From positions 186,001 to 250,000 of the forward strand of contig NZ_JAAIKE010000002.1 in NCBI RefSeq assembly GCF_010915705.1: a DNA stretch of 64,000 nucleotides. The letters run 5' to 3'. The position numbers and the translations under genes are program-made. Origin of the DNA: Pseudotabrizicola algicola (GTDB lineage: Bacteria > Pseudomonadota > Alphaproteobacteria > Rhodobacterales > Rhodobacteraceae). This document shows, piece after piece, positions 4,902 to 11,213 of this stretch (positions are counted from its first letter, which is position 1; each line of letters opens with the position of its first letter). The notes under the pieces were generated by a model. That model did not search any database, was not told where the DNA came from, and worked only from the letters and a program-made list of their open reading frames with translations.

Positions 4902-4916
4902 TTAACTCAATCTTAA
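4902..4916. promoter_or_regulatory. CtrA-type box upstream of gpmI operon
   Basis: TTAA (4902-4905) and TTAA (4913-4916) are separated by exactly seven bases and followed by CC. This is the full TTAA-N7-TTAA consensus bound by the alphaproteobacterial cell-cycle regulator CtrA. It lies about 85 bases before the chosen gpmI start. Binding is inferred, not shown. Confidence 0.5.
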
Positions 4917-9034: not shown

Positions 9035-9532
9035 ATGGCGGACCCCATGCCCATCGACCCCGCAACCCTGCCCTATCGCCCCTGCGTCGGGGTGGTCCTG
9101 ATCAACGCCGACGGCCGGATCTGGACCGGCCAACGCCTCGACTCCCCCTCCCCTGCCTGGCAGATGCCGCAAGGCGGCATCGACTCGGACGAATCCCCGC
9201 GCGAGGCCGCCCTGCGGGAACTCTGGGAAGAAACCGGCGTGACCGCCGACAAGGTCGAGATCCTCGACAGCACCCCCGACTGGCTGACCTATGACCTGCC
9301 GCCAGACCTTCTGGGCAAGGTCTGGAAAGGCAAGTTCCGCGGCCAGAAGCAGAAATGGTTCCTGTGCCGCTTTCTGGGATCGGACGCAGATATCAGCATC
9401 GACCGCCCGCATCCCGAGTTCGCCGCATGGAAATGGATCGGCGCGTCCGAGATGTGCGCGGCCATCGTCCCCTTCAAGCGCCAGGTCTATGACCAGGTGG
9501 TCGACAGGTTCCGTCCCCATCTGGCGGTCTGA
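9035..9532 (+). CDS. rppH: RNA pyrophosphohydrolase (Nudix)
   Basis: This enzyme removes pyrophosphate from the 5' end of triphosphorylated mRNA, starting RNase E-dependent decay, or hydrolyses dinucleoside polyphosphates. The 165-residue protein has the full Nudix box from GGIDSDES to [14 protein letters not shown] (residues about 48-70). The [19 protein letters not shown] segment is typical of RppH. ATG 9035 is used; an in-frame ATG at 9047 (MPIDPATL) is a possible alternative because neither has a strong ribosome binding site. It is the last gene of the gpmI-envC-ctpA group and converges on ubiH across an unusual 367-base gap. Confidence 0.92.
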
Positions 9533-9683
9533 AACACCCCGGCGTCACGTGGACGGAGGCGTTGCTTTTTTGAGTATTTGGAAAGCAGCAATTCGACAGG
9601 CAGCGCGCCCCGGCCATCGGCACCGGTCCAGTGCGCAGGAAGAGCTTTCCACGTGACCGGGGCGACTTGCTGCTTGCGGTCAT
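9474..9683 (-). CDS. Candidate small protein ORF in the rppH/ubiH gap
   Basis: This 69-codon ORF begins [15 protein letters not shown] and I do not recognise it. Its support is upstream: GGGAGGAG stands seven bases before the ATG, a TATACC -10-like element lies further up, and a CtrA-type TTAA-N7-TTAA box sits about 45 bases before the start. Against it, codon use is not biased like its neighbours and the last 20 codons run antisense into rppH. It has four cysteines and a basic N-terminus. It may be a real small gene, the remnant of one, or a CtrA-controlled non-coding transcript that only looks translatable. Confidence 0.3.
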
Positions 9684-9705
9684 CGGGACTCCTCCCTGTA
9701 CCGCC

Positions 9706-9742
9706 CTTCCGGTATAGCGCCTTAACCTTAACGGGGCATTAA
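9706..9742 (-). promoter_or_regulatory. CtrA-type box and -10 element reading leftwards
   Basis: On the minus strand TTAA-TGCCCCG-TTAA occupies 9742 to 9728, a perfect TTAA-N7-TTAA. A further TTAA (9725-9722) and a TATACC -10-like element (near 9715-9710) follow. Transcription would start near 9703 and run into the candidate ORF at 9683. No annotated gene is otherwise served by it. Confidence 0.45.
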
Positions 9743-9851
9743 GCGCAGCCTGCGATTGCTGCTTCCAAAATACTCCCGCCGGAGGCTCCCACGATGCCTC
9801 CCGGGCAGCGCGCGGGCTGCGGGCATGCGCGGTGACGTATCCCGTGGCAAC

Positions 9852-9899: not shown

Positions 9900-11129
9900 T
9901 TACAGGCTTTGCCCCGTCAGCAGGCGCGGCAGATCGCCGGTCAAGCCCGCGGCCTGCCGGATGAAACCGCGGCGCAGACCCGGCAAGGCGGCTACCGCGC
10001 CCATGCCCAGATCGCGGGCGAGGCGCAGCGCGGGGTTGTCGTTGGAGAACAGCCGGTTCACGCCATCCATGCCCAGCGCCAGCGTGGTCGAATCGAACCT
10101 GCGCCAGCGCTGGTAGCGTTCCAGCACATCCGCTGCGCCGATGTCTTCGCCGCGGCGGCTGGCGTCGACCAGCACTTCGGCGAGGGCCGCCACGTCGCGC
10201 AGGCCGAGGTTCAGGCCTTGGCCTGCGATCGGGTGGACACCGTGGGCGGCGTCGCCCACCAGCGCCACGCGGGGCGCGACAAAGCTCTGCGCGAGGCTGA
10301 GCGACAGCGGATAGGTGAAGCGCGCGCCGGCCAGTGCGATCTCGCCCAGAAAGCTGCCGAAGCGGGGGCGCAGGACCTGCAGATAATCGGCATCATCCAG
10401 CGCCTGGATGGCGGCGGCGGCGGTGTCTGTCTCGCTCCACACGATCGAGGAGTGGTGGCCGCCGGGCAGCGGCAAGATGGCGAGGGGACCTGCAGGCATG
10501 AAGAATTGCTGCGCGATGCCCTGATGGTGCCCTTCATGCCGCACGGCGGTCACGAGCGCGGTCTGCCCGTAGCCCCAGCCCACACGGCGGATGCCGGCCC
10601 GCGCGGCGGTGCCCGAGCCGCGCCCGTCACAGCCGATCAGCAGGCGGGCGGTCAGGGTCCTGCCCGAAGCGAGCGAGACGGTGACGCCCTGCGGGCCCGT
10701 CTCCTGCGCGACGACGGTTTCGCCCGACAGCAGGGTCAGGCCGGGGGTGGCCTGCATCGCGTTCAGAAAGGCGCGGTAGAGGTGGCGGTCTTCCAGCATG
10801 AAGCCCATCGGGCCTTCCTCGATCTCGGCCGACTCGAAGTGCAGGAAGAACGGCGCGGCCCCCTGCCCTGCCGTGCCGTCCGACGCCTTGATCTGCAGGA
10901 TCGGCTGCACCTGACCCGCCACGGCGGGCCAGAGGCCGATGGCGGTCAGCAACCGTTTTGACGCGATAGCAAGCGCGTAGCTGCGTCCGTCGAACCCCGT
11001 TTCGGCCCGCGCGGGGGCGGGGCGGGCGTCGATCACAGTGACGCTCAGCCCGCTTTGCGCGAGGGCAAGTGCCAGTGCCGGGCCGTTCAATCCCCCCCCG
11101 GCAATCAGGATGTCGCTGTCATATGTCAT
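9900..11129 (-). CDS. ubiH: UbiH/UbiF-family FAD-dependent hydroxylase
   Basis: This flavoprotein monooxygenase is predicted to hydroxylate the ring of a ubiquinone precursor. The 409-residue protein starts MTYDSDILIAGGGLNGPALA with the ADP-binding GxGxxG, has the GCDGRGS motif (the DG motif of the family) in the middle and GDAAHGVHPIAGQGLNLGLR near residue 280, which binds the FAD pyrophosphate and is a UbiH/COQ6 signature. An upstream in-frame ATG at 11165 would add 12 residues that do not look like family sequence. It is divergent from the amidase gene. Which ring position it acts on (UbiH, UbiF, UbiI or UbiL type) cannot be fixed by reading alone. Confidence 0.88.
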   Translation of the reverse strand: MTYDSDILIAGGGLNGPALALALAQSGLSVTVIDARPAPARAETGFDGRSYALAIASKRLLTAIGLWPAVAGQVQPILQIKASDGTAGQGAAPFFLHFESAEIEEGPMGFMLEDRHLYRAFLNAMQATPGLTLLSGETVVAQETGPQGVTVSLASGRTLTARLLIGCDGRGSGTAARAGIRRVGWGYGQTALVTAVRHEGHHQGIAQQFFMPAGPLAILPLPGGHHSSIVWSETDTAAAAIQALDDADYLQVLRPRFGSFLGEIALAGARFTYPLSLSLAQSFVAPRVALVGDAAHGVHPIAGQGLNLGLRDVAALAEVLVDASRRGEDIGAADVLERYQRWRRFDSTTLALGMDGVNRLFSNDNPALRLARDLGMGAVAALPGLRRGFIRQAAGLTGDLPRLLTGQSL

Positions 11130-11213
11130 GGCGGGGACTATGGGGCAAAGATCGGAATTGTCCATGCGCTGCCTTGCCGCTAGCGTGATTGCAAATCAGG
11201 GGCAGGCGTTTGC

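Follow-up and report, generated by a model that had tools for sequence, protein, structure and literature searches.

The present analysis concerns a stretch of 64,000 nucleotides (nt) from the alphaproteobacterium Pseudotabrizicola algicola (contig NZ_JAAIKE010000002.1, positions 186,001 to 250,000), hereafter referred to as the window, and in particular the gap between two of its converging genes. These are a NUDIX gene, rppH (9035-9532, plus strand), and an FAD-binding gene, ubiH (9900-11165, minus strand), the names being those of the initial annotation and consistent with the Pfam matches of both proteins. A TTAA-N7-TTAA box (TTAACGGGGCATTAA, 9728-9742) with a further TTAA adjoining it, a TATACC element (9716-9711), the Shine-Dalgarno-like GGGAGGAG and an ATG at 9683 are read directly on the minus strand of the gap. 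The initial annotation had taken this layout for a CtrA-type promoter driving a transcript that might encode a short protein or act antisense to the 3' end of rppH. Comparison with related genomes upholds the promoter through conservation of the layout and points to a different product, a small structured RNA whose first loop and linker match short repeats dispersed at gene ends across the genome, and which is likely to pair with the strand complementary to them.

A conserved structured RNA with its own promoter

A search of the gap against 41 related genomes revealed a block that is kept across the genus. The core of 100-101 nt (100 nt in the window, 9605-9704, minus strand) is common to eight genomes, including the window's own, and shows a mean column identity of 95% in the oriented alignment; only its second half is retained in genomes G011 and G009, which have lost the first hairpin at the rppH-ubiH locus. 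The core is predicted to fold into a hairpin, H1 (GCGGTACAGGGAGGAGTCCCGATGACCGC with the loop GGAG, 9676-9704), an unpaired linker (AAGCAGCAAGT, 9665-9675) and a larger, branched hairpin, H2 (CGCCCCGG...CCGGGGCG, 9606-9664), which is supported by both the fold and the covariation. The minus-strand fold has a z-score of -2.47, with 3 of 200 shuffles as good, and the plus-strand fold one of -0.36 (65 of 200). G-U pairs appear when the minus strand is read, and an RNA from the plus strand is disfavoured by these wobble pairs together with the folding energy. Among 47 homologues, both partners vary in 26 of the 32 pairs, and not one of 500 shuffles attains the observed value in any of five measures. 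Paired letters fill 97.5% of 1208 cells, as against 36-51% when the structures are slid by 1-3 columns, a figure that leans towards the model because the alignment was fitted to it. In several out-group copies H2 is followed by a T run. The RNA family has no credible match among the Rfam covariance models: matches of the locus in Rfam 15 were all far below the gathering scores (best E-value 0.13), six loci gave one weak match, away from the RNA, and eleven further loci gave none at an E-value of 0.05. A scan of the gap for sigma-70 promoters and terminators yielded nothing useful.

The comparison of the gap among relatives also bears on the products proposed earlier: the box-type promoter is kept, and neither the ribosome binding site as such nor the reading frame is. 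The minus-strand open reading frame at 9683-9474 has 69 codons. A short protein would agree with the good spacing of the Shine-Dalgarno-like GGAG and the ATG, and with the presence of ATG in 197 and TTG in 2 of the 199 copies fitting a pattern that allows only these two; however, the frame and the length vary among the homologues, and GGAG is replaced by the loops GCCG, GAGA and GGCG in other copies. Counted from the conserved ATG, the frames of 182 copies span 10-110 codons (10th-90th percentile), 54 of them falling below 25 codons and 30 between 60 and 80, and among genomes of the genus the frame is displaced by a 1-nt indel in the linker. GGGAGGAG falls within the stem and loop of H1, the ATG (9681-9683) lies in the 3' side of H1, and the conservation around it is explained by the covariation of H1, which counts against a protein. 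Thus the 69-codon protein is rejected for its unconserved frame and length and retains hardly any probability, while conservation as an RNA structure is well supported by the comparative evidence. Antisense control of rppH as the main role is likewise unsupported, since the core stops 72 nt short of the end of rppH at 9532 without overlapping it (the true 3' end of the RNA being uncertain), since the same RNA adjoins other genes, not rppH and ubiH, in genome G012, and since the rppH-ubiH gaps of G005, G007 and G014 are without the RNA. The gap of G013 holds a possible remnant.

Perfect TTAA-N7-TTAA boxes number two in the window, against a mean of 0.00 in 100 shuffles. The second (4902-4916) lies a short way upstream of gpmI, with which the run gpmI-envC-ctpA-rppH begins. 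When 176 regions upstream of the RNA were aligned at the first base of H1, 65% had A at -11 and 74% had T at -7, with TTAA at about -28 to -24 and a weaker TAA at -38 to -36. The box of the window (-38 to -24 relative to the RNA start at 9704) and its TATACC (-12 to -7) sit on this family profile. Among 171 copies with 140 nt of upstream sequence, TTAA occurs in the last 60 nt of 141 and in the furthest-upstream 60 nt of 12, it starts at -29 to -26 in 103, and the form nTAA-N7-TTAA is present in 33. Outside the plasmid set, 153 of 186 copies have TTAA no more than 45 nt upstream. A chance promoter is rejected in view of this conservation over the family, and the sequences give good support to a conserved promoter of the RNA's own with a CtrA-type box, through which CtrA may time the RNA. 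CtrA-activated promoters of the alphaproteobacteria are similar in that a box of the TTAA-N7-TTAA type overlaps the -35 region; they differ in that most RNA copies have one exact TTAA half only, and five copies on Rhizobiales plasmids carry GATTC close to -15 in place of the TTAA box. GANTC is the CcrM site. In the promoters of the 186 non-plasmid copies, GANTC occurs 20 times at -21/-20 and 7 times at -12, close to the TTAA box.

Gene-end repeats matching the RNA

The repeats have the form NNN-TATTT-n-TAIL and are found mostly at gene ends. Repeats of the form GAGTATTT-n-AAGCAGCAA stand after both genes, at 9572-9591 on the plus strand (after rppH, inverted relative to the RNA) and at 9756-9775 on the minus strand (after ubiH), and the linker sequence AAGCAGCAAG, matching the tail AAGCAGCAA, thus recurs on both sides of the gap. 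A broader pattern detects 69 repeats in genome G000 and none with reversed-pattern controls; some form inverted pairs about 20 nt apart. Judged by simple gene calls of our own, a gene of the same orientation precedes the repeat in 13 of 16 cases in 400 kilobases (kb) of G000 and in 22 of 28 cases in 400 kb of G002, and 20 of these 44 repeats lie between convergent genes while 24 do not.

Two separate segments of the RNA match the repeats. Among 68 loci collected, one of which (L066) was left out for its short flank, the linker matches the flanking tail on at least one side at 61 of 67 (59 upstream, 58 downstream), a score that shuffled linkers reach in 11-13% of trials per side. The differences from tail to linker are A>G in 44 of 47 cases upstream and 41 of 47 downstream, and G>A never occurs in the matched segments. 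The second segment is the loop of H1. From 184 records, 153 upstream and 149 downstream RNA-repeat pairs were taken, and in these 302 pairs loop positions 2, 3 and 4 equal the three bases before TATTT in 96, 97 and 99%, respectively, and position 1 is identical to the repeat in 57%. The mean loop-repeat identity is 0.873 as against 0.587 under shuffling, the maximum of 1000 shuffles being 0.622. RNAs with the loops GAGG, GCCG, GAGA, GCGG and GGGG are accompanied by the same letters before TATTT, and in the window the last three bases of the loop GGAG are the GAG that precedes TATTT in the matching repeats. The match extends to the Gammaproteobacteria, where a Thiothrix plasmid carries the linker CCAGGGTGATG and the repeat AAGGTATTT-n-CCAGGATGATG. 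Both the loop and the linker carry the same sense as the repeat and not its complement.

The agreement is not confined to the flanks of the RNA gene, as entire genomes follow one repeat dialect or another. Repeats of the forms GAGTATTT-n(1-5)-AAGCAGCAA and GAGTATTT-n(1-5)-AAGGTGCAA were counted in 14 genomes of the genus, including those beside the RNA itself. Genomes with the linker AAGCAGCAAG have 64 and 2 (G000), 77 and 0 (G001), 117 and 6 (G002), 84 and 0 (G003) and 81 and 0 (G015) repeats of the two kinds, respectively, and genomes with the linker AAAGGTGCAAG have 3 and 46 (G004), 0 and 98 (G006) and 0 and 44 (G012), so that all eight genomes with this RNA follow the dialect of its linker. 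Where the RNA has decayed at its locus, the counts are 0 and 1 (G009) and 1 and 7 (G011); where it was not found at its locus, they are 0 and 0 in G005, G008 and G014, and 0 and 6 in G010.

Several RNAs may coexist in one genome, each with its own repeats. Every RNA has a repeat family in the stretches read from G006 (three RNAs), G002 (three), G014 (two), G005 (one) and G000 (two), and the triplet follows the loop. The families, which were picked after reading the stretches, are GAG-AAGGTGCAA (12 repeats), GGA-AACAGATGA (5) and GGA-CCAAGATAAA (1) in G006; GAG-AAGCAGCAA (18), GGA-GACAGAAAATG (4) and GAG-CCARGATGA (3) in G002; GGA-GACAGAAAATG (4) and GGA-GAAGGGGAA (4) in G014; GGA-AACAGATGA (5) in G005; and GAG-AAGCAGCAA (10) and GGA-AACAGATGA (3) in G000. 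Predictions set beforehand from the RNA and its flank held in two genera other than that of the window: G221 has five ACGTGAGCAA repeats, one of which adjoins its RNA, and 11 other genomes have none; AAGGTGCAA repeats number 47 in G152 (two beside its RNA) and 2 in G000 (already known), with none in 10 others.

Dialects also differ at orthologous gene ends. Between G000 and G006 the flanks align and the tail dialect differs at, for instance, 118579, 144277, 91060 and 81444 of the G000 stretch, and the tail is unchanged at 298983 and 209404; at 209404 the repeat family is switched between G000 and G002. A cis-only reading, with the linker pairing merely with its own downstream tail, is disfavoured by the genome-wide dialects and by out-group copies for which no downstream inverted tail was found. 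Co-evolution of the RNA with the repeats genome-wide is well supported by the sequences compared.

Distribution of the RNA gene

A first covariance model matched 13 of 16 genomes of the genus and 138 of 295 genomes of the family at an E-value of 0.01, many of the family matches being weak. A second model, built from 47 diverse copies, matched 15 of the 16 genus genomes at 0.01, 210 of the 295 sampled family genomes at 1e-4 (186 of 260 among those of good quality) and 10 of 289 genomes of the class at 0.001, three of which are within the family; the E-values are approximate for both models. In named genomes, a pattern scan gave at least 118 stretches, and most of the 80 listed belong to Rhodobacteraceae or Paracoccaceae.

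Within the genus the loci are largely stable. The RNA first recognised lies between rppH and ubiH in G000-G004, in G006 and, on the preserved side, in G015; a second RNA locus is common to nine genomes and three more are each common to two to four. Twenty-nine genus loci were compared, of which L340 and L342 did not fit the H1 pattern and a few were without a partner. The linker is, on this comparison, evolving in place, and frequent movement of the gene is disfavoured by the stable loci, though the copy in G012 stands elsewhere. Of the three loci shared by two to four genomes, one (L341 and L069) holds the RNA in opposite orientations in G003 and G014 with the flanking genes kept, as recombination between inverted repeats could bring about.

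RNAs of the H1 type also occur on plasmids of Paracoccus, Thalassococcus, Azospirillum, Rhizobium, Neorhizobium, Mesorhizobium, Shinella, Roseibium, Cereibacter and Thiothrix, and on the 5.6 kb Nitrosococcus plasmid pNWAT02, where H1 is slightly irregular; H1 was read in the sequence of these copies, some of the BLAST matches being weak (E-values up to 0.9). At 7 of 15 plasmid loci, four of the 15 being on unannotated stretches, a replication gene is no more than about 1 kb away and the RNA is directed towards its 3' end. On the five small Rhizobiales plasmids whose copies have GATTC in the promoter (L349, L350, L351, L352 and L355) the RNA lies about 450-600 bp from repA, again pointing at the 3' end of that gene. 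The presence of the RNA on very small plasmids suggests that any protein partner is a common host protein. A phage origin was considered and set aside, with no match in phage records and one stretch in viral contigs. In the IMG/VR viral contig L288, an H1-type RNA is followed by a terminator-like hairpin.

Proposed pairing with the repeats and its significance

From these comparisons we infer the transcription of the RNA, its pairing, a protein partner, an effect at the repeats and timing by CtrA. The locus would encode a small RNA that acts in trans and has a promoter of its own, provided with a CtrA-type box. H1 would form a conserved handle, to which a protein probably binds. The final three bases of its loop, GAG in the window, would together with the linker, which here reads AAGCAGCAAG, constitute a two-part address that pairs with the strand complementary to the gene-end repeat, the constant TATTT presumably being read by a protein or by RNA polymerase. 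Pairing with the complementary strand is likely because two separate segments match and the differences are one-way and of the wobble type. The whole proposal of a trans-acting RNA that pairs in this manner, which overlaps two of the alternatives below and differs from them in the use made of the pairing, is favoured with moderate confidence. As to the partner, the chances are about even that recognition takes place at the DNA of gene ends, marking or blocking the end of transcription of the upstream gene, and we lean this way because the 24 of 44 repeats that are not between convergent genes share the same tails. The chief alternative, recognition of an RNA antisense to the repeat, is given a somewhat smaller, though substantial, chance.

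Several observations weigh against this proposal. The spacer between TATTT and the tail varies, which rigid recognition would not lead one to expect, and the constant TATTT could merely be a U-tract. Some tails (L043, L030, L040 and L036) stand directly before an apparent start codon, a poor fit to a simple terminator role, and such a repeat may double as the ribosome binding region of the next gene. The A>G bias perhaps reflects a need for G in the RNA and not wobble pairing, since most of it falls on linker positions 5 and 6, where 165 and 168 of 197 RNAs, respectively, have G. Some repeats are at odds with the known RNAs: G000 has a third dialect, GGATATTT-n-GACGGAAAA (triplet GGA; 3 copies in 400 kb), with no RNA found for it, and single repeats of three further families occur in G002, of AAGCTGCAA in G006 and of AAGGTGCAA after GCC in G005. 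Related genomes are not independent tests of the dialect agreement. The strict TTAA-N7-TTAA is present in only 7 of the 171 promoters, and the 3' end of the RNA is uncertain because H2 lacks a T run in the window, where the terminator scan of the gap found none.

The strongest competing explanation, possible though on the unlikely side, is a classical regulatory small RNA (sRNA) whose loop and linker pair with an antisense RNA through a common chaperone such as Hfq. The partner would be the 3' untranslated region of a convergent neighbour, a read-through RNA or the RNA's own downstream antisense tail. The 20 of 44 repeats lying between convergent genes are in keeping with this, since the messenger RNA of the neighbour could there carry the antisense tail; so are the inverted tail just downstream of the RNA gene at 58 of 67 loci, the tolerance of G-U in pairing between RNAs, and the occurrence on small plasmids, which makes a common host factor the probable partner. 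However, the remaining 24 repeats have the same tails and, by the simple gene calls, are not between convergent genes, and no inverted tail was found just downstream of the copies in G538, Azospirillum and Thiothrix.

A rather improbable reading is an RNA-guided selfish or self-homogenising element. Here an enzyme guided by the RNA would insert or rewrite the repeat at gene ends, and the RNA gene, flanked by two inverted repeats, would serve as the master copy. In keeping with this are the inverted copies of its own repeat that commonly flank the RNA gene (the upstream and downstream pairs counted above), the near absence of dialect repeats where the RNA has decayed or was not found, the locus inverted between G003 and G014, and the dialects that switch in place at orthologous gene ends with the flanks kept, which would be hard to achieve by point mutation at 44-117 sites. 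On the other side, most RNA loci keep their place throughout the genus, so that the gene itself rarely moves, and a Pfam scan of five neighbouring proteins of the window (NUDIX, FAD binding, peptidase S41, amidase and aminotransferase) showed no recombinase or transposase. Writing templated by the RNA, with the linker copied into DNA, is disfavoured because the RNA has G at the A positions of the repeat. A programmed form, with the loop triplet and the linker guiding a putative, widely available enzyme that writes or homogenises the repeats, is held to be no more probable than the selfish element. If such writing did occur, it would keep dozens of NNN-TATTT-n-TAIL sites in one dialect, new dialects would arise in the RNA and then spread, and the RNA gene would constitute a genetic element that encodes no protein itself and is present on chromosomes and small plasmids.

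A decoy, that is, an RNA acting as a sponge by carrying the tail sequence to which a protein or RNA binds, would agree with the sense shared by RNA and repeat; it is nevertheless very improbable, as a single binder would need to recognise dozens of unrelated tails as well as several different loop triplets, several of them within one genome, and the one-way A>G difference favours pairing.

The proposed two-part address recalls several known systems without coinciding with any. It resembles trans-encoded bacterial sRNAs in its sigma-70-like promoter, its length of about 70-110 nt, the single-stranded segment between hairpins and the terminator-like last hairpin of several out-group copies, and both the conserved promoter and the conserved secondary structure typical of them are found here; it differs in that its segment follows a DNA repeat dialect at 44-117 sites and in that the loop is a second matching segment. 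IS110 bridge RNAs similarly have a two-part guide in a small structured RNA, flanking a constant core, whereas here both segments are of the same sense, the bridge arms reading opposite strands, and no recombinase gene is present among the five window neighbours scanned. The guide RNAs of TnpB, TldR and Cas12 share a hairpin handle, which lies 5' of the guide, and a T-rich constant motif 5' of the target; here a further hairpin comes after the guide, the distance from the T-rich motif is variable, and no nuclease or effector gene of the TnpB/Cas12 type was found among the same five neighbours. DNA uptake sequences and the repetitive extragenic palindromic (REP) sequences and bacterial interspersed mosaic elements (BIME) are also short dispersed repeats, often arranged in inverted pairs at gene ends and with species dialects, and we know of no matching RNA in those systems. 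Novelty is judged here against Rfam, the open-licence literature and the described systems. To our knowledge, no described system of RNA and repeats has one sRNA gene co-evolving with 44-117 dispersed sites, with separate RNA-repeat pairs side by side in one genome. Among the matches listed from the open-licence literature, no title or opening of an abstract describes this RNA, and the six H1 words looked for occur in none of the open-licence papers searched. The Rhodobacterales motifs HRC-8-4 and uORFC-8-2 sit at cco and cysS genes and differ from this RNA (PMC8632094). For 16 of the 167 sRNAs of Paracoccus denitrificans (PMC5107571), coordinates and strand in another strain do not correspond, and no expression match to this RNA could be drawn.

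If the pairing with the complementary strand is true, the RNA address would account for the GAGTATTT and GGATATTT gene-end repeats of these genomes, and changing the linker or the loop should change the set of targets. The RNA and its repeats would then constitute a compact, naturally occurring system of two-part RNA addresses located at gene ends, under a promoter of the cell-cycle type and present on small plasmids, in a large family of marine and soil bacteria.
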